Assembly (NCBI GenBank): GCA_001772005.1 | Contig: MERI01000093.1 | Location: forward strand, 8,463 to 72,462 | Length of the DNA: 64,000 nucleotides | Reading direction: 5' to 3' | Source of the DNA: Betaproteobacteria bacterium RIFCSPLOWO2_12_FULL_62_58 | Lineage (GTDB): Bacteria > Pseudomonadota > Gammaproteobacteria > Burkholderiales > SG8-41 | In this document: positions 8,912-61,379 of the stretch, in pieces | Layout: each line of letters starts with the position of its first letter | Position numbering within the stretch: position 1 is the stretch's first letter | Program-made: the position numbers and the translations under genes | The notes under the pieces: generated by a model | Database searches by the model: none | The model's input: the letters and a program-made list of their open reading frames with translations, nothing else | Told to the model about the DNA's origin: nothing

Positions 8912-9083
8912 GGTGAACGGGTGAACGAGTGAACGGGTGAACGAGTAATCCGCAGCCACGCCAAAGATGCGGTTAACGGTTAATACTCGTTAATGCCAAG
9001 GACAACATCACGTCCTCTCGCCCGCAAATCGTCTTCATGCCGCGCGATACCCGTTCACTCGTTCACTATTCACTTGTTCACGC
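8912..9083. repeat. Paired 8-bp repeat arms (ggtgaacg) between ABC permease and ATPase
   Basis: Four 8-mers RgtgaacG (8912-8944) and a mirrored run cgttcactcgttcac (9050-9083). The right run contains the stop codon of the ATPase gene (9078-9080). The period is 8 rather than 7. Confidence 0.9.
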
Positions 9084-18478: not shown

Positions 18479-18574
18479 GCCGCGGCCTCCGGACCCAAAA
18501 CACGCTACTGCTCCCCGGCGTTGCGATCTGGCACAATATCCCCACAGCCAATAAGGCGCAGGAGCGCAAACCCG

Positions 18575-20029
18575 GTGGCAGACCCGTCCAAACCCGAATT
18601 GCTGATCGTCGACGACGATCCGTTGATCACCGACACGCTCAACTTCGTGCTGGGCAAGGACTTCTCCGTCTACGTCGCCGATTCGCGCCCGCAAGTAAAG
18701 AGCCTGCTGCGGCAGCTCGACCATCCGCCGCAGCTGGCGCTCATCGATCTGGGCCTGCCGCCCACGCCGCACCGCCCCGACGAGGGCTTTCGCCTCATCA
18801 GCGAACTGATCGCCTACTCGCCGGGCATCAAGATCGTCGTGCTGTCGGGCCAGAGCGACGAAACCAACGCGCGCCACGCGCGAACCCTCGGCGCGATCGA
18901 GTTCGTCGCCAAGCCGTGCGAGCCGGAAACGCTGAAGAAACTGCTCAAACGCGCTTTCGAAATCCGCGATGCCGAGCTCGGGGCCGCGCCCGAAGGCGGG
19001 CTCCTGGGCAGAAGCCTGCTCGTCGAGAAGCTGCGCCAGCAGATCGGCCAGTTCGCCAACGCGCCGTTCCCGGTGCTGATCGAAGGCGAATCGGGCAGCG
19101 GCAAGGAGCTGGTGGCGAAAGCCCTGCACTTGATGAGCCGCCGCGCAGCGCGGCCGTTCCTGGCGCTGAATTGCGCCGCGATTTCGCCGACGCTGGTCGA
19201 GCCCACGTTGTTCGGATACGCCAAAGGCGCGTTCACCGGCGCGACCACCGCGCGCGCCGGCTATTTCGAGGACGCGCACGACTCGACGCTCTTCCTCGAC
19301 GAGATCGGGGAGCTGCCGCTCGAGTTGCAGGCGAAGCTCTTGCGCGTGCTCGAGAACGGCGAATTCCAGCGTGTCGGCGAAACCCAGAGCCGCGTGTCGA
19401 ACGCGCGCGTGATCGCCGCCACCAACCGCGACATGCGCGCCGAAATCCGGGCCGGGCGTTTCCGCGCCGACCTCTACCACCGGCTTTCGGTATTCACGGT
19501 CAACGTGCCGGCGCTGCGCGACCTGGGCGACGACAAGTGCATGCTGCTCGACCATTATCGCGAGTTCTACGCGCGGCAGGCCGGGGCGGAGCCGTTCGAG
19601 TTCGACCGCAACGCGATGGACCTGTGGCTCGACTACAGCTTCCCCGGCAACGTGCGCGAATTGAGAAACATCGTGATCCGGCTCACCACGAAGTATGCCG
19701 GTCAAAAGGTCAACGCCGAGCAGCTGCAGTCCGAACTCGACATGGAGAGCATGGACATCGATCTGCCGGGGCTGCCGACGGGACAGGACTTCAAATCGCT
19801 GCTGGACGCCGCCAGGCGCCATCTGCAGGTGCAGAAGAACTTCAATCTCGACTTCACCATGCGGCAGTGGGAACGCGGCTACGTCGAGGCGGCGCTGGCG
19901 ATCACCCAGGGCAACCTCACCCAGGCGGCGAAGCTCCTCGGCATCCACCGCACGACGCTCTACAGCAGAATGCAGAACTATGCGAACCAGGGCGAGTCCG
20001 ACCCGGCTGCGTCCTCATCGGCAAAATGA
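18575..20029 (+). CDS. Sigma-54-dependent response regulator (NtrC family, PrsR-like)
   Basis: 484 residues. Receiver domain 8-125 with acidic pocket D13-D15 and phospho-acceptor D58 in LIDLG; AAA+ domain with Walker A GESGSGKE and sigma-54 contact loop GAFTGAT; C-terminal Fis-type helix-turn-helix [20 protein letters not shown]. The receiver resembles regulators of exopolysaccharide/PEP-CTERM loci. GTG start at 18575 has aggag 9 nt upstream. It leads the pilus operon and is the natural activator of the sigma-54 promoter at 36404. The kinase at 32870 is a candidate partner. Confidence 0.9.
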
Positions 20030-20080: not shown

Positions 20081-21151
20081 ATGTATTACAGCCATTTCGG
20101 GTTGAACCAGGCGCCGTTCAAGATCACGCCGAACACCGAATTCTTCTTCAGCGGCGGCAACCGCGGGCCGATACTGGAGGCGTTGATCTACACGATCACC
20201 CACGGCGAGGGCATCGTCAAGGTGACCGGCGAAGTGGGCAGCGGCAAGACCATGCTGTGCACCATGCTGCAGACGCGCCTGCCCCAGCATATCGAAACCG
20301 TCTACCTCGCCCATCCCAACGTCTCGCCCGAGGAAATTCTGCACGCGATCGCCTTCGAGCTGCAGCTTGGGCCAGCCCGCGGCGCGGCGCGGCTCGAGGT
20401 GATGCACTTGCTGCAGGACTATCTGCTCAAGCGTCACGCCGAAGGCAAGCGCGTGGTGGTGTTCGTCGAGGAGTCGCAGAGCATGCCGCTCGCGACCCTC
20501 GAGGAGATCCGGCTGCTGTCCAACCTCGAGACGCGCAACGACAAGCTGCTGCAGATCGTGCTGTTCGGCCAGCCCGAGCTCGATGACAATTTGCGCCGGC
20601 CCAACATCCGCCAACTGAGGGAGCGCATTGCCCACAGCTTCCGGCTCGAACCGCTCCATGCCGGGGAAATCCACGAATACGTGATGTTCCGCCTGCGCGC
20701 GGCCGGCTACCGCGGGCCGGACCTGTTCTCCGACGCAGTCATCAAGTACATCGCGCGCGCTTCGGCTGGGCTCACGCGCCGCGTCAACCTGATCGCCGAC
20801 AAGGCCTTGCTCGCGGCGTTTTCGGAGAACACCCATACCATCAAGTTGAAGCACGTCGAGGCGGCGGTGCGCGATAGCGAATTCAGCCAGCACCAAGCGC
20901 TGCGGGTAAAGCCGCAACTTGCATGGGGAGCGGCACTGGTGCTCGCGGGCGCAGCGATCGGCGTTGTCGTCTATGCGCTGATTCTGCACGGCGGCGGCAA
21001 TGACAGCCCGGCTGCTGCTGGAGCCAAGACGGCCCCGCTGCTGCTGGAGCCAAGACGGCCCCCGTTGCGCCTGACCAGCCAGCCGCGGCCGCCCGGCCTG
21101 CCACCGTTCCAGCCGTCGCCAAGGCGTCCCCTGCTGCCGGCACTGCAGTGA
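20081..21151 (+). CDS. ExeA/MshM-like AAA ATPase, 5' part of a split AAA-SPOR gene
   Basis: 356-residue reading: AAA ATPase with Walker A GEVGSGKT 50-57, Walker B VVVFVEES, then a TM helix (WGAALVLAGAAIGVVVYAL) about residue 285-303, then frame-shifted Pro/Arg-rich tail. Family members (GspA/ExeA, MshM) couple ATP hydrolysis to secretin or pilus assembly, with a periplasmic peptidoglycan-binding end. A 26-bp tandem duplication at 21011-21062 throws the frame out; with one copy removed the gene reads through into the SPOR domain as a 522-residue protein. Confidence 0.88.
   Translation: MYYSHFGLNQAPFKITPNTEFFFSGGNRGPILEALIYTITHGEGIVKVTGEVGSGKTMLCTMLQTRLPQHIETVYLAHPNVSPEEILHAIAFELQLGPARGAARLEVMHLLQDYLLKRHAEGKRVVVFVEESQSMPLATLEEIRLLSNLETRNDKLLQIVLFGQPELDDNLRRPNIRQLRERIAHSFRLEPLHAGEIHEYVMFRLRAAGYRGPDLFSDAVIKYIARASAGLTRRVNLIADKALLAAFSENTHTIKLKHVEAAVRDSEFSQHQALRVKPQLAWGAALVLAGAAIGVVVYALILHGGGNDSPAAAGAKTAPLLLEPRRPPLRLTSQPRPPGLPPFQPSPRRPLLPALQ
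21011..21062 (+). repeat. 26-bp perfect tandem duplication causing a frameshift
   Basis: gctgctgctggagccaagac plus ggcccc occurs at 21011-21036 and again at 21037-21062. 26 is not a multiple of 3. After the second copy the original frame would read AKTAPVAPDQPAAAARPATV, a normal Ala/Pro linker continuing into the next ORF; the frame in use reads LLLEPRRPPLRL and stops at 21149-21151. Confidence 0.95.
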
Positions 21152-21675
21152 GTAATGCCGAGACGAACAAGAAAAAACCTGTAATATCCGCCAAAGCTTC
21201 AGCGAGTGCGGTCGCGAACCCGTCCCAGGGCGCCAAGGCGGGCATGCCTGCGTCAACGCCGACTGCCGTTGCTGCCACGCCCGCGCCAAGCGCGGTTCCG
21301 ATGGGGAAACTCCCGCCCCGGCCGCCGGGTAACGAGCCGGGATTGGTGGAACAACGCCTTGCCGCCACCCAGGAATGGCTGGCCAACGCCGCCCAAACCA
21401 CATACAGTATTCAACTGATGGGCATCGATAATGAAGAACAGCTGAAGAACCATCTCGACGACATTGCGAAATTCGTTGAAGTGAACAGGGTTTTTTTGTA
21501 TCGTACCATTGCCAACCGCAAGGCGTCGCTCACGCTCTTGTACGGCAGTTTCAGCGACCGCCGCGCAGCGCAGGATGCGCTCGAGAAATTGTCTCCGTCG
21601 CTGAAGGCGAATCGACCGATTCTGCGCACCGTGCGAGGGATACGCACGGAACTCGAGCGGCACCGGAGTTCTTGA
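21148..21675 (+). CDS. SPOR-domain protein, 3' part of the split AAA-SPOR gene
   Basis: 175 residues from a GTG that overlaps the preceding TGA (GTGA). The first 60 residues are Ala/Pro/Lys linker. The C-terminal part TYSIQLMGIDNEEQLKNHL ... LTLLYGSFSDRRAAQDALEKL is a SPOR domain, which binds denuded septal or pilus-adjacent peptidoglycan. It has no signal or TM of its own, so as a separate product it would be cytoplasmic and probably useless; function needs fusion to the upstream AAA-TM part, by frameshift or duplication loss. Confidence 0.85.
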   Translation: MSNAETNKKKPVISAKASASAVANPSQGAKAGMPASTPTAVAATPAPSAVPMGKLPPRPPGNEPGLVEQRLAATQEWLANAAQTTYSIQLMGIDNEEQLKNHLDDIAKFVEVNRVFLYRTIANRKASLTLLYGSFSDRRAAQDALEKLSPSLKANRPILRTVRGIRTELERHRSS

Positions 21676-21742: not shown

Positions 21743-23665
21743 ATGATGCAAGCAGAGTCTGCGCCCGGTTGTGCGCCGGTCAGCACGGCATCGCCAGCGT
21801 TGGGCGACGCGAGCCCCGCTGCCGTTGAGCTTGGCAAGAATTCCGGGCTGGCCTGCGGTTTGATGCTGTCGCTGATGCTGGCGAGCTGCGCCGACATCCG
21901 TCCCTATGTCCCGCCTTCGGAAGGCCATATCGCTGCACCGCAGGTCAAGCCCGAACCGGAAAAGGCGATCCCGCCGCTGGCGCGGGTGAGCACGTTCGTG
22001 CCTCCGCCGCGGCCGGCGGTCAAGCCGCAGACCTACAGCGTCGTCGTCAATGAAGTGCCGGTGAAGGAATTGCTGCTGGCGCTCGGCCGCGACACCAAGC
22101 AGAACATCGACATCCATTCCGGTCTGCAAGGGCTGGTGAGCCTCAACGCGATCAACGAGACGCTGCCGGCGATCCTCGACCGTATCGCGAAGCAGGTCGA
22201 CATGCGTTACCGCGTCGAGGGTGGCACCATCATCGTTTCGCCTGACACGCCGTACATGAGGACCTACCGCATCAACTACGTGAACATGACGCGCGATACC
22301 ACTTCGACCATCGGCGTTTCGGGCGAGATCACCGCATCTGCGCCCGGGACAGGGGCTTCAGGCGGCGCGGCAGGTACGGCTCCCAGCGGCGCGACCAGCG
22401 GTTCCAGCATTGTGGTGCGCACGGTGTCCAAGAACGACTTCTGGGATGCGCTGCGCGAAAACATCCGCGCCATCCTCGCCTCCACCCGCGCACGCAGCCT
22501 GAGCGCGGAAGACAAGGCCGTGGCAGCCGAGGAGCGCAGGACGGCGCGCGAGCAAGCGCTCAAGCAGGCCGAGGCGGTGGCGCGGGCCGGGCAGGGAGCA
22601 ACCACATTGTTCAACACCGCCTTCCGCGGCCAGAGCCAGCAACAAGCGGGGGACGTGCGCGACGATATCATCATCAATGCGGTGAGCGGGACCGTCAGCG
22701 TGCTGGGCACCGAAAAGCAGCACCAGATCATCCAGCAGCATATCGACAGCATCACCGCCTCGGTTCAACGCCAGGTGCTGATCGAGGCGACCATCGTCGA
22801 GGTCACATTATCGGAAGGATACCAGGGCGGCATCGACTGGAGCCGGCTCGCGGTAGGCGGGGGCATTACGTTTGCGCAGGCACTGCTCGGCGGCTTCGGC
22901 GCGGCGGCCGTGGCAGCCGGCGCGACCGCCGGCAACGCCATCGCTATCGGCTATCAGAATCCGAGCTCGAGCGTCGGCAACATCAGCGTAACCATCAAGC
23001 TGCTGCAGGAGTTCGGCAACGTGAAAGTGTTGTCGAGTCCGAAGCTGATGGCGCTCAACAACCAGACGGCGCTGCTCAAGGTCGTCGACAACGTGGTCTA
23101 CTTCGAAATCCAGGCGCAGACTACCCAGAGTCAGACAACGGCGCTTACGACCTTCAACACTACGCCCAAGACTGTGTCGGTCGGTGTGGTGATGGGTGTG
23201 ACACCGCAGATTAACGACGATGGCCGCGTTCTGCTCACCGTGCGGCCGACGATTTCACGCGTGGTGAGATTCGTCAATGACCCCAACCCGACGCTGGCCA
23301 ATCCCTGCGGCTCGGACAAACCGTGCCCGGAAAGGGCCGTGGCCAGCCCGGTGCCCGAAGTGCAGACGCGCGAAATGGAATCAGTGCTGCAGGTCGGCAG
23401 CGGGCAGACCGTGATTCTCGGCGGACTGATGCAGGATGAGATCGCCCGAAGCCGCGAGCAATTGCCGGGCGCAGATCGGGCCGGCGTCGCGGGTGAAGCG
23501 CTGCGGTTCCGCAACGAGCGTGTCGCCAAAACCGAACTGGTGATCTTCCTGCGCCCCACCGTCATCGCCAACCCCTCGCTGGAAAGCGATGAACTGAAAT
23601 TCTTCCAGCGCTTCCTGCCGCAATCTGAGAAGCCACCTGTCGAGAACACCGGCGCTGCGCCATGA
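21743..23665 (+). CDS. mshL: MshL-like secretin of the MSHA-type pilus
   Basis: Outer-membrane secretin through which the pilus emerges. 640 residues. A lipobox LASC with Cys49 follows an unusually long, weakly charged N-region. STN/N0 domain about 100-180 (VPVKELLLALGRDTKQNIDI), an extended N1-type domain with an Ala/Arg-rich helical insert, and the C-terminal secretin domain with VLSSPKLMALNNQTALLKV and VILGGLMQDEI. ATG-ATG start follows gggagaag. The stop overlaps the next ATG (ATGA). Confidence 0.9.
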   Translation: MMQAESAPGCAPVSTASPALGDASPAAVELGKNSGLACGLMLSLMLASCADIRPYVPPSEGHIAAPQVKPEPEKAIPPLARVSTFVPPPRPAVKPQTYSVVVNEVPVKELLLALGRDTKQNIDIHSGLQGLVSLNAINETLPAILDRIAKQVDMRYRVEGGTIIVSPDTPYMRTYRINYVNMTRDTTSTIGVSGEITASAPGTGASGGAAGTAPSGATSGSSIVVRTVSKNDFWDALRENIRAILASTRARSLSAEDKAVAAEERRTAREQALKQAEAVARAGQGATTLFNTAFRGQSQQQAGDVRDDIIINAVSGTVSVLGTEKQHQIIQQHIDSITASVQRQVLIEATIVEVTLSEGYQGGIDWSRLAVGGGITFAQALLGGFGAAAVAAGATAGNAIAIGYQNPSSSVGNISVTIKLLQEFGNVKVLSSPKLMALNNQTALLKVVDNVVYFEIQAQTTQSQTTALTTFNTTPKTVSVGVVMGVTPQINDDGRVLLTVRPTISRVVRFVNDPNPTLANPCGSDKPCPERAVASPVPEVQTREMESVLQVGSGQTVILGGLMQDEIARSREQLPGADRAGVAGEALRFRNERVAKTELVIFLRPTVIANPSLESDELKFFQRFLPQSEKPPVENTGAAP

Positions 23666-24876
23666 GCCTGTTGATGAAGGCCTTGGAAAAGGCCGCCAAG
23701 GACCGGGGCGAGGTACAGACCGAGCACGCGGCGACTGCCGCCTCGACTCGGCCCAAGCCCGAACTATCGCTTGCGCTCGAGCTGCTGGCGGCGGACACGC
23801 CTTCTCCGCAGATGAAAGAGGAAGCCCCGCCCAAGCCGGGCCCCGGGCAACGTACGTCGGCCGCGGCGCCGTCACGCGAACAGGCGCGGGCTGCAAGCGT
23901 GATGCAAGCCGGGGGCCGGCCGGCTGGCGGCCTCGGCATCTATGTGCGCACCCATCCTCTGGTCGTCTTTGGCACGTTCGCCGCGCTGTTTGCGATCGGC
24001 TTCGGCACCTACGTCTACCTGCAGATCGTCCACCCCGCCGTGTTTATCCGTCAGACCCCGGCACCCAAACCACCGCTACCGCTCAGTCAGGCGCCGCCTC
24101 CGAGTCCCGTCGCGCCGCAACCGATCGCGACAGCTCCGCTGCTGCAGTCGACTGTGCCGGAAGCACCGCCGCAGCCGCCCGTGCGCGCCGCCGCACCCGC
24201 ACAGCAACCCGAACCGCCCGCGGCGTCGGTGTCGCAGAAGCCCGAACCCGGCTCGTCGCGAAACACCGTTGTCGTGAGCCGCGGCAACGCCGCGCCGCCG
24301 ACCGTCAACCCGCTGCTTACCGAAGCGTATACCGCGCTTCAGGCCGGCCGCCTGGACACCGCGCAGCGCTTATATGCCCAACTCGTACGCGCCGAACCGA
24401 AAAGCATCGACGCCTTGCTGGGTCTCGCCGCCATCTCGCTGCAGGAAGGGAAGACAGAGGATACCGCTCGATATTATCTGCAGATCCTCGAGCTCGACCC
24501 GCGGCACGCGCTTGCGCAATCAGGCCTGATCGGGCTCATGGGCCGGGCCGATCCACTCGCCGCGGAATCGCGCCTCAAGCAGCTGATCGCGCGCGAGCCC
24601 TCCGCGTTCCTGTATTTCACGCTCGGCAATCTGTACGCCGACCAGTCGCTGTGGGCCCCGGCCCAGCAGGCCTATTTCCAGGCCCATCACCTCGAGCCGA
24701 ACAACCCGGACTATGCCTATAACCTCGCCGTGGGCCTCGAACACTTGAGCCAGTCCCGTCTCGCGCTCGGCTTTTACCGCCGGGCCGTGCAACTTGCCAC
24801 CGCCCGCGGCCACGCCAACTTCAACCCTGCCCAGGCCCAGGAGCGCATCGGCAAACTCGCCACGCAGGTAGAATAG
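23662..24876 (+). CDS. mshN: MshN-like TPR protein
   Basis: 404 residues: cytoplasmic N-terminus MSLLMKALEKAAKDRG (typical of MshN/GspB-like proteins), TM helix about 97-118, long Pro-rich periplasmic linker 130-215, then about five TPR-like helical pairs (TEAYTALQAGRLDTAQRLYA onward). In MSHA systems MshN is an assembly component thought to bridge membranes. Overlaps mshL by 4 nt. Confidence 0.85.
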   Translation: MSLLMKALEKAAKDRGEVQTEHAATAASTRPKPELSLALELLAADTPSPQMKEEAPPKPGPGQRTSAAAPSREQARAASVMQAGGRPAGGLGIYVRTHPLVVFGTFAALFAIGFGTYVYLQIVHPAVFIRQTPAPKPPLPLSQAPPPSPVAPQPIATAPLLQSTVPEAPPQPPVRAAAPAQQPEPPAASVSQKPEPGSSRNTVVVSRGNAAPPTVNPLLTEAYTALQAGRLDTAQRLYAQLVRAEPKSIDALLGLAAISLQEGKTEDTARYYLQILELDPRHALAQSGLIGLMGRADPLAAESRLKQLIAREPSAFLYFTLGNLYADQSLWAPAQQAYFQAHHLEPNNPDYAYNLAVGLEHLSQSRLALGFYRRAVQLATARGHANFNPAQAQERIGKLATQVE

Positions 24877-24894: not shown

Positions 24895-26598
24895 ATGGCC
24901 GAACAGCGAAAAAAATTCCGGCTCGGCGATCTGCTCGTGCAGCAGGGACTGATCTCCACCGATCAGCTCGCGATCGCGCTCGCCGAGCAACGCAACAACA
25001 ATATCCCGATCGGGCGCCTGCTGGTGCGGCTCGGTTTCGTTACGGAAACCGCGATCCGCGACATCATGTCGCGCACCATTGGCCAGGAGTCGATCGATCT
25101 GACCCAGGTCGTCGCCGATTCCGAAGCATTGAAAATGGTGCCGCAGGAATTCGCGCGTCGCAACCGCCTGCTGCCGATCGCCTACGACCCCATGGAGCAG
25201 GTGCTGACGATCGCCACCGCGGAGATTTTCAACGTGGTGGCGATGGACCAGCTGCGCGCGATGCTCGGCGGGCAGATCGAGGTCAAGCCCCAGTTCGCGA
25301 GCGAGGACCAGCTCGAAACCTTTATCGACCAGTTCTACGGCTTCGAGCTGTCGGTCGACGGCATCCTGCACGAGATCGAGACCGGGGAAATCGATTACGA
25401 GAGCGTGCAGGCCGGCGGCGACGAATACACGCAGCCGATGGTGCGGCTGGTCAACGCGTTGCTGGTCGACGCGGTCAAGCGCGGCGCCTCCGACATCCAC
25501 TTCGAGCCCGAGTACGCGTTCCTGCGCATCCGCTTCCGCATCGACGGGGTCCTGGAAACGGTGAGGAGCCTGCACAAGACCTACATGCCGGGCATCACGG
25601 TGCGGCTTAAAGTGGTGAGCGACATGAACATCGCCGAAACGCGCGCGCCACAGGACGGGCGGCTGTCGCTGACGTTGAGCGGCCGGCAGATCGATTTCCG
25701 GGTTTCGACCCAACCCACGATCTACGGCGAGAACATCGTGTTGCGCATACTCGATCGCGAAAAATCGATCATCAGCCTCGATCGCATGAACCTGGCCGCG
25801 GAAACGCTCGCGAAACTCAACCTCATGCTGGCGCGCCCCGAAGGCATCCTGATCGTGACCGGCCCCACCGGCAGCGGCAAGACCACCACGCTCTACTCGC
25901 TGCTGGCGCAGGTCAACGACGAAACGGTCAACATCATGACGCTCGAAGATCCCGTCGAGTATCCGTTGACGCTGATGCGGCAGACTTCGGTCAATGAAGT
26001 CGCGCGCATGGACTTCGCCAACGGCATCCGCTCCATCATGCGCCAGGACCCGGACATCATCCTGGTCGGAGAAGTACGCGACAAGGAAACCGCGGAAATG
26101 GCGTTTCGCGCGGCAATGACCGGCCACCAGGTGTTCACCACGCTGCACACCAACTCCGCGCTCGGCGCCTTCCCGCGGCTTCTGGACATCGGCATCCAGC
26201 CCGACATCATGGCCGGCAACATCATCGGCGTCATCGCCCAGCGCCTGGTGCGCGTGCTCTGCCCGCACTGCAAGGAGGCCTACGCGCCGTCCGCGGAGGA
26301 ACGTCTGCTGCTCGGGCGTGCCGCGGAATCGGTGTCGTATCTGTACCGGCCGGTCGGCTGCAAACAGTGCGAGAACAAGGGATACAGGGGCCGCGCCGCG
26401 ATCATGGAACTGCTGGTGATGGACAGCGACCTCGACGAATTGGTGGCCCGCCGCGCGACGGTCAAGGACTTGCGCGCTGCGGCGATGGCGAGAAACTTCC
26501 GCCCACTGGCGAACGAAGGGCTCCAACGCGTTGTCGATGGCACCACCAGCCTCGCCGAAGTCTCGCGCGCGGTGGACCTCACCGGACGGTATGGTTAA
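24895..26598 (+). CDS. mshE: MshE-like pilus assembly ATPase with c-di-GMP-binding MshEN domain
   Basis: Hexameric motor ATPase for pilus extension, cytoplasmic. 567 residues. The N-terminus carries a full 24-residue MshEN motif, R9-L-G ... G18 ... L25 ... L29 ... Q32, and a second diverged copy from I39. This domain binds cyclic di-GMP in characterised MshE proteins. Then GspE core: Walker A GPTGSGKTTT, Asp box, Walker B VGEVRDKETAE, and the zinc-type CPHC...CKQC module. All catalytic parts are present. Confidence 0.92.
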   Translation: MAEQRKKFRLGDLLVQQGLISTDQLAIALAEQRNNNIPIGRLLVRLGFVTETAIRDIMSRTIGQESIDLTQVVADSEALKMVPQEFARRNRLLPIAYDPMEQVLTIATAEIFNVVAMDQLRAMLGGQIEVKPQFASEDQLETFIDQFYGFELSVDGILHEIETGEIDYESVQAGGDEYTQPMVRLVNALLVDAVKRGASDIHFEPEYAFLRIRFRIDGVLETVRSLHKTYMPGITVRLKVVSDMNIAETRAPQDGRLSLTLSGRQIDFRVSTQPTIYGENIVLRILDREKSIISLDRMNLAAETLAKLNLMLARPEGILIVTGPTGSGKTTTLYSLLAQVNDETVNIMTLEDPVEYPLTLMRQTSVNEVARMDFANGIRSIMRQDPDIILVGEVRDKETAEMAFRAAMTGHQVFTTLHTNSALGAFPRLLDIGIQPDIMAGNIIGVIAQRLVRVLCPHCKEAYAPSAEERLLLGRAAESVSYLYRPVGCKQCENKGYRGRAAIMELLVMDSDLDELVARRATVKDLRAAAMARNFRPLANEGLQRVVDGTTSLAEVSRAVDLTGRYG

Positions 26599-26696: not shown

Positions 26697-27905
26697 GTGG
26701 CAACCTTTCAGTACAAAGCCGTAGACAAAGCGGGGCGTCCGGCGCGTGGTGCGGTGGACGCCGCCAACGAAGGCGATCTTGAGTTGCGTCTGCGGCGCAT
26801 GGGACTCGACCTCATCACCTACAAGCAGGTCGACGAGAAAAACTCCTCCTTCGCCGCCGGCGGCAAGATCACGCGCCAGGACCTGATCAACTTCTGTTTC
26901 GACATGGAACAGATGAATCGATCGGGCATCCCGCTGATCGACGGCCTGCGCGACCTGCGCGACACGGTCGACAGCCCGCGCTTTCGCGAAGTGCTCACGG
27001 TAATGACCGAAGATATGGAGGGCGGCAAGGTCATGTCCCAGTGCCTGGCGGCCCATCCGGAAGTGTTCGACAACGTGTTCGTGAGCCTCGTCAAGGCCGG
27101 GGAGCAAACCGGCCGCATGGCCGAAGTGTTCGAAAACCTCGTTTCCTCGCTCAAGTGGCAGGACGAGCTTGTCTCGCAGACCAAGCGGTTGCTGATCTAC
27201 CCCGCGATGGTGCTGGTCGTCGTCATCGCCGTCGTCGTGTTTTTGCTGGTGTTTCTGGTGCCGCAGGTGGTCAGCTTGCTCAAGACCATGGGCATTGCGC
27301 TGCCGGTTCAGACCAAGGTGCTGATCTTTGCCTCGAACGTCGTAATCGCTTACTGGCCGATCGTTTTCGGCGCCCCGGCGCTGGCGGCAATCGTTCTAGT
27401 ATTCGTGGTCAGGCGCAATCCCGCGGTCGCCTACCTGTGGGACTACACCAAACTGCACCTTCCCCTCACCGGGCCCATCCTGCAGAAGATCATTCTGGCG
27501 CGCTTTGCAAATTTCTTCGCACTGATGTACCAGTCCGGCATCACGGTGCTGGACGCGATCAGGACCGGCGAGGAAATCGTCGGCAATCGCGTGTTGGCCG
27601 ACGGCCTCATGCGCGCCGGTCAGCAGATCTCGGCGGGCGAGAGCCTCACCGAAGCATTCCGGAACCTCGGCCTGTTCCCGCCGCTGGTGATCCGCATGCT
27701 GCACGTGGGCGAGAACACCGGCGCGCTCGACACCGCGCTGAATAACATCAATTACTTCTACACCCGCGACGTGCGCGAATCCGTGGACAAGGCACTGAAG
27801 CTGCTTGAACCGAGCCTGACGCTCGGCCTGGGCATGGTGCTGGCGCTGATCATGTGGTCGGTGCTGTCACCGGTGTATGATATTTTGGGCAAGTTGAAGT
27901 TCTAG
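26697..27905 (+). CDS. mshG: MshG-like inner-membrane platform protein
   Basis: GspF/PilC-type polytopic platform that couples the ATPase to pilin polymerisation. 402 residues, starting at GTG 26697 (reads VATFQYKAVDKAGRPARG). Two GspF repeats: first with GIPLIDGLRDLRDTVDSPRF, second with SGITVLDAIRTGEEIVGN, each followed by hydrophobic helices; the C-terminal GLGMVLALIMWSVLSPVYD is the usual ending. Confidence 0.92.
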   Translation: MATFQYKAVDKAGRPARGAVDAANEGDLELRLRRMGLDLITYKQVDEKNSSFAAGGKITRQDLINFCFDMEQMNRSGIPLIDGLRDLRDTVDSPRFREVLTVMTEDMEGGKVMSQCLAAHPEVFDNVFVSLVKAGEQTGRMAEVFENLVSSLKWQDELVSQTKRLLIYPAMVLVVVIAVVVFLLVFLVPQVVSLLKTMGIALPVQTKVLIFASNVVIAYWPIVFGAPALAAIVLVFVVRRNPAVAYLWDYTKLHLPLTGPILQKIILARFANFFALMYQSGITVLDAIRTGEEIVGNRVLADGLMRAGQQISAGESLTEAFRNLGLFPPLVIRMLHVGENTGALDTALNNINYFYTRDVRESVDKALKLLEPSLTLGLGMVLALIMWSVLSPVYDILGKLKF

Positions 27906-27987
27906 TGAAAGGTGAAACGAGATGAGACCCCTGCCGCGAGGTTGCGCCGCGCCGAACGTTTCACTTTTCACTTTTCACTTTTCACCG
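27904..27987. repeat. Paired gtgaaag / cttttca heptamer arms
   Basis: gtgaaaggtgaaacgag (27905-27921) and three cttttca heptamers with flanks (27955-27987). The left run begins at the mshG stop. Confidence 0.85.
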
Positions 27988-30710: not shown

Positions 30711-31926
30711 GCGACTCTCAGGCGACCGCGACGCGGTGGTGCATAAAGCAGCGTTTTCCGCGCCTCAACGCGGTCAAGCGCTCATCATCGTGCTCGTGCT
30801 GCTCGCCGTGGGAGCGACCGCGCTCATTTTCACGCTCGCAACGCCAGCGACGACGACAATAGAAAACGACAAAAAAACAGCTGCGGCGCTGGCGCAGGGG
30901 AGGGATGCGTTGATTGGGTACGCCGCAGCAGATAATCGCCCGGGTTCACTTCCTTGCCCCGATATCAACAATAACGGGAGTGCGGAGTCGCCTATCCCGA
31001 CAGATTGCCCAGGCTATGTTGCGGGCAGTAGTGTCTATGTCGGACGACTGCCTTGGCGCACGCTGCGGCTGCCAGACCTACGCGACGGGAGCGGCGAACG
31101 ATTGTGGTATGCGGTGTCGCGCGAGTTTGCGAGAAATTCCTCTTCCTGCGGATCCTGTCCTTTGAATAGCGACACTTCCGGACTGTTGACAGTCAGCGGT
31201 AGTGCTAGCGGAATCATCGCCATTGTATTTTCGGCCGGTGCTGTGGTTAACGCCCAAGTCAGAGGTACGGTCAATGAAAATACCGCTGCAAATTATCTTG
31301 AAGGCGGCAACGAAAACGGCGCCACGACTTCCATTTTTTTTGCGAGTTCCACTTCTTCTTTCAACGATAAGCTTCTCACGATTACCAGCGACGATCTTTT
31401 TTCGGTGGTTACTATGCGCGTAGCGCGCGAAGTGCGCGCCGCTCTGAATCAGTACTACGCAAGGACCGGCGTCTTCCCGAGCGCCAACCAGTACTCGGAT
31501 AACACTTACAAATGCCATCCCACCACTTACGATGGGCGGATTCCGCTCAACATCACCGTCGGCTGCGCGGTGCCTCCAGCCAACTTTGCCGATTGGGCAC
31601 TCGGTGAGCTGCCCCCGTGGTTCGTGTCCAACAACTGGAACCTCGTGGTGCACTACGCGGTTTCAAGCTGGTGCGCCAGCACAAATGCCTCGGACATTTC
31701 CCAGTGCAGCTCGGCCGGCGGCCTGACGGTCACGGGAGTAACCACGAAGGGGCGGGCGCTCATCATCGCCACTGGCCGCCGCCTCGGCGCTCAAGTTCGC
31801 CCCTGCTCTTCCGCGTCAAACTGCCTCGAAGACGTGGAAAATGCGAACGGCGACACACTCTTCGTGCCGCCTGTACGCTCGGCCTTGAACAACGATCGAC
31901 TGCTCCTCGTCGCTGAAGCGCCATGA
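30691..31926 (+). CDS. Minor pilin-like protein (PilX/GspK type)
   Basis: 411 residues. After a 29-residue leader region a class III-like signal RG-QALIIVLVLLAVGATAL appears, with hydrophobic helix but no Glu at +5, the PilX/GspK pattern for tip-located minor pilins. The rest is a large Cys-containing periplasmic domain (paired Cys in SSCGSCP and later). Start ATG 30691 chosen to keep the signal near the N-terminus. Overlaps the next prepilin by 4 nt. Base composition is lower in GC than the neighbours. Confidence 0.72.
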   Translation: MTRTAARRLSGDRDAVVHKAAFSAPQRGQALIIVLVLLAVGATALIFTLATPATTTIENDKKTAAALAQGRDALIGYAAADNRPGSLPCPDINNNGSAESPIPTDCPGYVAGSSVYVGRLPWRTLRLPDLRDGSGERLWYAVSREFARNSSSCGSCPLNSDTSGLLTVSGSASGIIAIVFSAGAVVNAQVRGTVNENTAANYLEGGNENGATTSIFFASSTSSFNDKLLTITSDDLFSVVTMRVAREVRAALNQYYARTGVFPSANQYSDNTYKCHPTTYDGRIPLNITVGCAVPPANFADWALGELPPWFVSNNWNLVVHYAVSSWCASTNASDISQCSSAGGLTVTGVTTKGRALIIATGRRLGAQVRPCSSASNCLEDVENANGDTLFVPPVRSALNNDRLLLVAEAP

Positions 31927-32687
31927 AGAACGCGCACGGATTTACTCTGATAGAAATGGCGGTCGCCCTCGTGGTGATCGCGTTGTTGCTCGGCAGCATC
32001 CTGGTGCCGCTCGCCACGCAGGTCGAGCAGCGCCAGATTTCAGACACCAAGAAGCACCTCGAAGAAATTAAAGAAGCATTGATCGGGTTCGCGATAGCCA
32101 ACGGCCGGCTGCTATGTCCGGCTTCAGCAACCAGCAATGGCGCAGAGAGCTTCGTTGGCGTTGTCGGGGCTAGTGCCTGCACGACATACAACGGCTTCGT
32201 TCCGGCGGCAACGCTGGGAATTTCACCAGTTGATGATCAAGGCTTTGCCATTGATCCATGGGGCAATCGCATCCGCTACTCTGTGACTAATTGGGTACCG
32301 AGCACACCGCCATCCTGCGCCCCGTCTACGCCGCCATTTACCACAACGGGCGGCATGAGTACTAATTGGTCGTGCCCATTAGCGCCGAACTTGAACGTGT
32401 GCTCTACCGCAACCGGTATCAGCGGTTCGATTTGCGCCGCCGGAACCGCGCTGACTACCGGTGCACCGGTAGTCATTTACTCCACGGGAAAGAACGGGGG
32501 GTATGGAGGAACTGGTCTGGACGAGGCAGCTAATCCCAATCCGAATAGCACGGACAACGATCGAGCATTCGTCAGCCATGTACCCACGCCTTCCACTGCT
32601 CCAAACGGCGAGTTCGACGACATCATGACTTGGTTGTCGCCGAACATTCTGTACAACCGCATGGTCGCGGCAGGAAAGCTGCCCTGA
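31923..32687 (+). CDS. Type IV prepilin-like protein, large
   Basis: 254 residues with an ideal prepilin signal: MKNAHG|FTLIE, Glu at +5, then a hydrophobic helix. The long C-terminal domain has several Cys and many Thr/Ser/Asn. Probably a minor pilin or MSHA-like subunit assembled by the upstream machinery. No prepilin peptidase is in the window, so processing must use one encoded elsewhere. Confidence 0.85.
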   Translation: MKNAHGFTLIEMAVALVVIALLLGSILVPLATQVEQRQISDTKKHLEEIKEALIGFAIANGRLLCPASATSNGAESFVGVVGASACTTYNGFVPAATLGISPVDDQGFAIDPWGNRIRYSVTNWVPSTPPSCAPSTPPFTTTGGMSTNWSCPLAPNLNVCSTATGISGSICAAGTALTTGAPVVIYSTGKNGGYGGTGLDEAANPNPNSTDNDRAFVSHVPTPSTAPNGEFDDIMTWLSPNILYNRMVAAGKLP

Positions 32688-47335: not shown

Positions 47336-47428
47336 AAGCGGTGAACGGTGAGCGGTGAGCGGTGAGCGGTGAACAGTGAACAGACCAACCCGCTACCCAG
47401 CTCCGATCACCGATCACCGTTCACGCCG
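47336..47428. repeat. Paired ggtgagc / gatcacc heptamer arms after rapZ
   Basis: Left run gcggtgaacggtgagcggtg onward (47339-47383, six heptamers) and right run gatcaccgatcaccgttcac (47407-47426). Arms are reverse complements with a loop of about 20 bp. Confidence 0.92.
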
Positions 47429-61281: not shown

Positions 61282-61379
61282 GAATCCTTGATCCTGAATC
61301 CTGAATCCTGAATCCTTGATCCTGAATCCTGAATCCTTGATCCTGCATCCTTGATCCTGACCCTGCCATGCTGACCCTG
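61282..61379. repeat. Heptamer array between thiS and thiG
   Basis: About twelve heptamers of the types ccttgat, cctgaat and finally ccctgcc, ending 2 bp before the thiG ATG. Same unit as the array at 1-77, 61 kb away. Confidence 0.92.

Follow-up and report, generated by a model that had tools for sequence, protein, structure and literature searches.

A conserved single gene for an MshM/ExeA-like protein, with an AAA ATPase part and a SPOR domain, is split into two ORFs by a perfect 26-bp tandem duplication in the stretch of 64,000 nucleotides analysed here (the window). The split is very probably an ordinary gene-disrupting tandem duplication of very young age, which arose either by mutation in the cells that were sampled or as an error of local assembly. 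As the gene is in one piece in the relatives, these two origins, which we hold about equal, are the most likely, rather than an evolved on/off switch. The features concerned, all on the + strand, are:

18521-20029, + strand: sigma-54 response regulator (receiver, Sigma54_activat and Fis HTH), upstream of the AAA gene
20081-21151, + strand: ORF1, MshM/ExeA-like AAA ATPase, 356 aa; AAA_22 at residues 41-170; TIGR03015 at 213.7 bits, which falls below the cut-off of 324.5
21011-21036, + strand: first 26-bp copy, part of the Ala/Pro linker and read in its normal frame
21037-21062, + strand: second 26-bp copy, frameshifting
21063-21147, + strand: linker stretch of the fused protein, out of frame in ORF1 (linker comparison)
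21148-21675, + strand: ORF2, rest of the linker and SPOR domain, 175 aa; SPOR at residues 83-159
21743-23665, + strand: MshL-type secretin; TIGR02519 at 238.2 bits, cut-off 250.2
23662-24876, + strand: TPR protein at the mshN position (profile matches)
24895-26598, + strand: MshE/GspE-like assembly ATPase with an MshEN domain
26697-27905, + strand: GspF/MshG-like inner-membrane platform protein
31923-32687, + strand: prepilin-type protein (N_methyl)

The two copies are identical and adjacent, with the sequence GCTGCTGCTGGAGCCAAGACGGCCCC. The match at period 26 spans exactly 52 bases, does not extend on either side, and its unit has no shared edge bases. As 26 is not a multiple of three, the second copy moves the downstream frame, which places ORF1 and ORF2 in different frames. 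With one copy removed, the reading is 1569 nt long, a multiple of three, and comprises 522 codons plus a stop codon, with no internal stop. The first-pass annotation had described perfect frame-shifting copies and a single 522-codon ORF upon removal of one of them, and both descriptions are exact. A chance repeat was rejected, with no self-matches of at least 20 bp at periods 12-100 in 20 order-2 Markov simulations of the window. Hairpin-promoted slippage was rejected too: DNA folding of 20990-21090 is no better than that of shuffled sequences (z -0.05). Many heptamer-based tandem repeats (e.g., ATCCTTGATCCTGA) are scattered in the window, at 1-75, 8913-8946, 27959-27985, 47337-47381 and 61282-61360, and repeats of this kind also lie at L070 8356-8500.

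ORF1 contains a transmembrane helix at approximately residues 284-302 (19-residue hydropathy mean 2.62), and its C-terminus past the second repeat copy is an out-of-frame tail rich in Pro, Arg and Leu. The SPOR domain of ORF2 scores 27.1 bits with Pfam PF05036, above the gathering score of 21, and ORF2 matches the family SPOR profile with an E value of 3.7e-54. The GTG start of ORF2 overlaps the TGA stop of ORF1. ORF2 has no signal and no membrane helix (best 19-residue hydropathy mean 0.56), in agreement with the earlier description of a GTGA start and a SPOR domain without a signal; as assembled, it thus lacks what would take SPOR to the periplasm. Where AAA and SPOR are fused, as in the relatives, SPOR would be taken across the membrane by the part of the protein that precedes it. 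The normal gene product would begin with a cytoplasmic AAA ATPase and cross the membrane once by a helix; a low-complexity Ala/Pro linker would then lead to a periplasmic SPOR domain, for which peptidoglycan binding is expected. We propose that a single very young 26-bp duplication in the linker throws the SPOR part out of frame. Translation of the assembled sequence would then give the AAA part and the helix, followed by a short foreign tail of about 40 residues instead of SPOR, so that the SPOR function is probably lost; ORF2, if translated, would remain cytoplasmic. No backup paralogue was found in the same genome at E 0.001.

The AAA gene occupies the mshM position, beside homologues of MshL, MshE and MshG. 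The mandatory genes of MSH systems are mshA, mshE, mshG, mshL and mshM (PMC6668835). The gene order fits an MSHA-type pilus operon. As several models, TIGR02519 among them (238.2 of 250.2 bits), score under their equivalog cut-offs, MSHA-like is a safer label than MSHA proper.

Homologues in other genomes reveal the unsplit state of the gene. The AAA and SPOR parts are fused, with a SPOR match, in 70 of 93 distinct homologues; G024, one of these 70, retains just half of the domain. No SPOR match was obtained for the other 23, which are mainly Shewanella MshM proteins, together with sequences cut by contig ends and the frameshifted L171. A search with ORF2 of 399 genomes of the order gave 117 match rows, about 108 of which lie in an open frame of at least 430 aa. 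The short SPOR matches are found at contig ends (G089, G200, G217, G012, G094 and G352), in a gene with a nonsense codon (G142), in a gene with a linker frameshift (G434) and in the window itself. The top-scoring nearest homologues, which belong to the same genus and are 82-87% identical in the AAA part, have AAA and SPOR in one frame. The same holds for every homologue from the same genus or family whose locus is complete; only sequences that stop at contig ends and the SPOR-truncated G024 depart from it. The linkers vary greatly in length and sequence between genomes. When the first 30 of the homologous loci were searched for perfect repeats, the window's own was the only one with the 26-bp repeat. 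The comparison with relatives suggested in the first-pass annotation thus speaks for its view that an AAA-SPOR gene of a pilus-type operon was split by the duplication, as does the MSHA-like gene order. Two conserved separate proteins, the outcome it had named as contrary, are not what the relatives show, and two conserved separate genes are ruled out by the fused relatives.

Several relatives carry lesions of other kinds. In G434 (L227, G434:C36) the AAA frame ends at 369 aa and SPOR is in the +1 frame; this break has no tandem repeat, and the sister genomes G204 and G270 are fused. In L171 (CAMYML010000018.1, a gammaproteobacterial bin) the AAA frame closes at 412 aa and SPOR goes on in the +1 frame, and downstream of the break the linker also contains a 27-bp tandem repeat that stays in frame (ALDQAASTD). 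G024 (L034, G024:C59) seems to have lost the second half of its SPOR domain, and the secretin gene follows directly; the sister genome G029 is complete. In G142 (L225, G142:C13) a stop codon lies inside the AAA domain (LLSNL*TKQHKL) and the rest of the fused gene is open. The Shewanella MshM proteins (L175-L188, L190, L193, L194) end just past the helix at about 300 aa, without SPOR. As these proteins end there, SPOR is a lineage-specific part of the protein at the mshM position.

Next, we considered the age of the split. Between the window and its nearest relative, dN/dS is 0.126 for the AAA part and 0.132 for the SPOR part, and lineage-unique amino-acid changes are balanced (12 versus 13 and 9 versus 8). 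Therefore, no decay has accumulated, and an old pseudogene is ruled out, as selection is not relaxed in either half. Purifying selection on both halves, together with the two identical copies, means that the split is either very recent or present in the assembly only.

The host bin (G000) comprises 5.88 Mb in 277 contigs, is 98.6% complete and 6.25% contaminated, and its nearest named relatives are betaproteobacterial metagenome bins. The chance that the split is an assembly error only is somewhat short of even. In that case, the 26-bp overlap of two sequence ends would have been kept twice at their join, and the true gene would hold a single copy. The source record is a short-contig bin, the gene is uniquely broken, and the purifying selection that persists on both halves is consistent with an error. 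The junctions show zero microhomology, as expected if an overlap was written twice, although microhomology can be missing from real duplications too. Many apparent frameshifts and pseudogenes in bacterial assemblies are errors, and assembler-made pseudogenes are common (PMC11017572). However, the site lies mid-contig and shows neither a gap nor a run of Ns, and duplications that break a gene in a similar way look rare in a 1.11-Mb sample of the bin. This sample does contain other perfect duplications whose unit is about 20 bp or longer, but most have a length divisible by three, are simple or REP-like, or lie at a contig end. The 26-bp duplication is the only one tied to the break of a recognised gene, the genes around the others in the 1.11 Mb being unannotated. 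As such duplications look rare in the sampled 1.11 Mb, the bin is not generally riddled with them, and general assembly decay was rejected as an explanation. One contig (G000:C130, L122 1-53) opens with a perfect 26-bp tandem repeat of a different sequence, possibly an assembly edge effect.

A genuine mutation of recent date, which the sampled strain would carry fixed or at high frequency while tolerating the loss of SPOR, likewise stands slightly below an even chance. The mid-contig position and the scarcity of similar lesions in the 1.11-Mb sample argue for it, as does the independent damage in relatives (the frameshifts in G434 and L171, the truncated SPOR in G024 and the nonsense codon in G142). 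These lesions, however, likewise come from draft or binned assemblies. The Shewanella proteins that naturally lack SPOR are consistent with tolerance of its loss, and deletion of mshM in Vibrio cholerae does not lower pilus production (PMC4624765). On the other hand, SPOR is conserved across the family, so its loss should carry some cost.

Perfect direct repeats of about 26 bp can collapse, and the first-pass annotation had raised a reversible phase-variation switch for pilus assembly beside a recent mutation and an assembly error. The latter two stand as possibilities; the switch finds no support. In such a switch, the duplication would form and collapse via slippage or recombination and toggle the full-length protein, which we consider unlikely. 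A frameshifting two-copy repeat is present in the one assembled sequence. In pneumococcus, as cited in PMC4022640 (Waite 2001, 2003), capsule genes are switched off by tandem duplications that arise spontaneously and are described as phase variation. The two cases share a duplication within an ORF that stops a gene for a surface structure, and this precedent means that the idea of a switch is not absurd; in that account, however, a phenotype and phase variation are reported, whereas the window is one assembled sequence only. The literature searched yielded no precedent for tandem-duplication switching in pilus genes closer than the pneumococcal capsule, and nothing on MSHA combined with phase variation and frameshift. 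Furthermore, a switching linker would be expected to keep a repeat, but the 26-bp repeat was seen in no homologue scanned and is not maintained among them. There are two copies only rather than a hypermutable array, from a single event in a single genome bin, and DNA folding around the site is ordinary. Neither G434 nor L171 shows a comparable duplication where its linker frame breaks, and both shift into the other frame. An effect on the pilus is also doubtful, since the V. cholerae mshM knockout keeps its pili (PMC4624765). Together with the SPOR-less MshM of Shewanella, this phenotype implies that the AAA-helix product may keep some function and that pili need not turn off. We infer that the duplication is not a maintained switch.

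It is less likely still that the linker is a recurrent site of duplications and indels that detach SPOR, which would give a mixture of full-length and SPOR-less MshM and thereby tune the anchoring of the pilus machine to the wall. Least likely of all, and very improbable, are two genuine proteins, with ORF2 made separately by GTGA stop-start coupling or programmed -1 frameshifting: the ORF2 GTG does overlap the ORF1 TGA, but in the nearest relative the aligned position holds no start codon, no Shine-Dalgarno-like purine run lies upstream of the ORF2 start, ORF2 has no export signal or helix for a periplasmic domain, and the relatives are fused. Programmed frameshifting or coupling was rejected because the start at the site is not conserved and the few splits seen elsewhere shift into the other frame. 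As ORF2 lacks a ribosome-binding-like sequence and its GTG is unmatched in the nearest relative, it is probably no protein of its own.

A young disruption of a single gene, by mutation or by assembly, thus remains the preferred reading, and the intact protein can be compared with known systems. DamX-type proteins combine AAA and SPOR in some lineages in a cell-division context, unlike the gene in the window, which lies in a pilus operon. The MshM proteins of Vibrio and Shewanella MSHA-type operons share with it an AAA ATPase followed by one helix and the proximity of MshL, a TPR protein, MshE and a GspF/MshG-like protein. They differ in that MshM of Shewanella is about 300 aa long and has no SPOR, whereas the betaproteobacterial form has a linker and SPOR in the same frame. 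ExeA/GspA of type II secretion shares the AAA ATPase, the one helix and a periplasmic peptidoglycan-binding part; in the betaproteobacterial protein, this periplasmic domain is SPOR. As outlined in PMC4098917, ExeA binds peptidoglycan and helps secretin assembly. PMC4624765 counts MshM of V. cholerae among the ExeA-like proteins.

Our analysis cautions that one 26-bp duplication can make a conserved single gene look like two: annotated as it stands, the bin would show an AAA protein and, separately, an orphan SPOR protein. There is a small chance of polymorphism at the duplication site. If reads held both forms, an environmental betaproteobacterium would provide a rare example of switching through random tandem duplication, and the role of SPOR in pilus anchoring would become testable.
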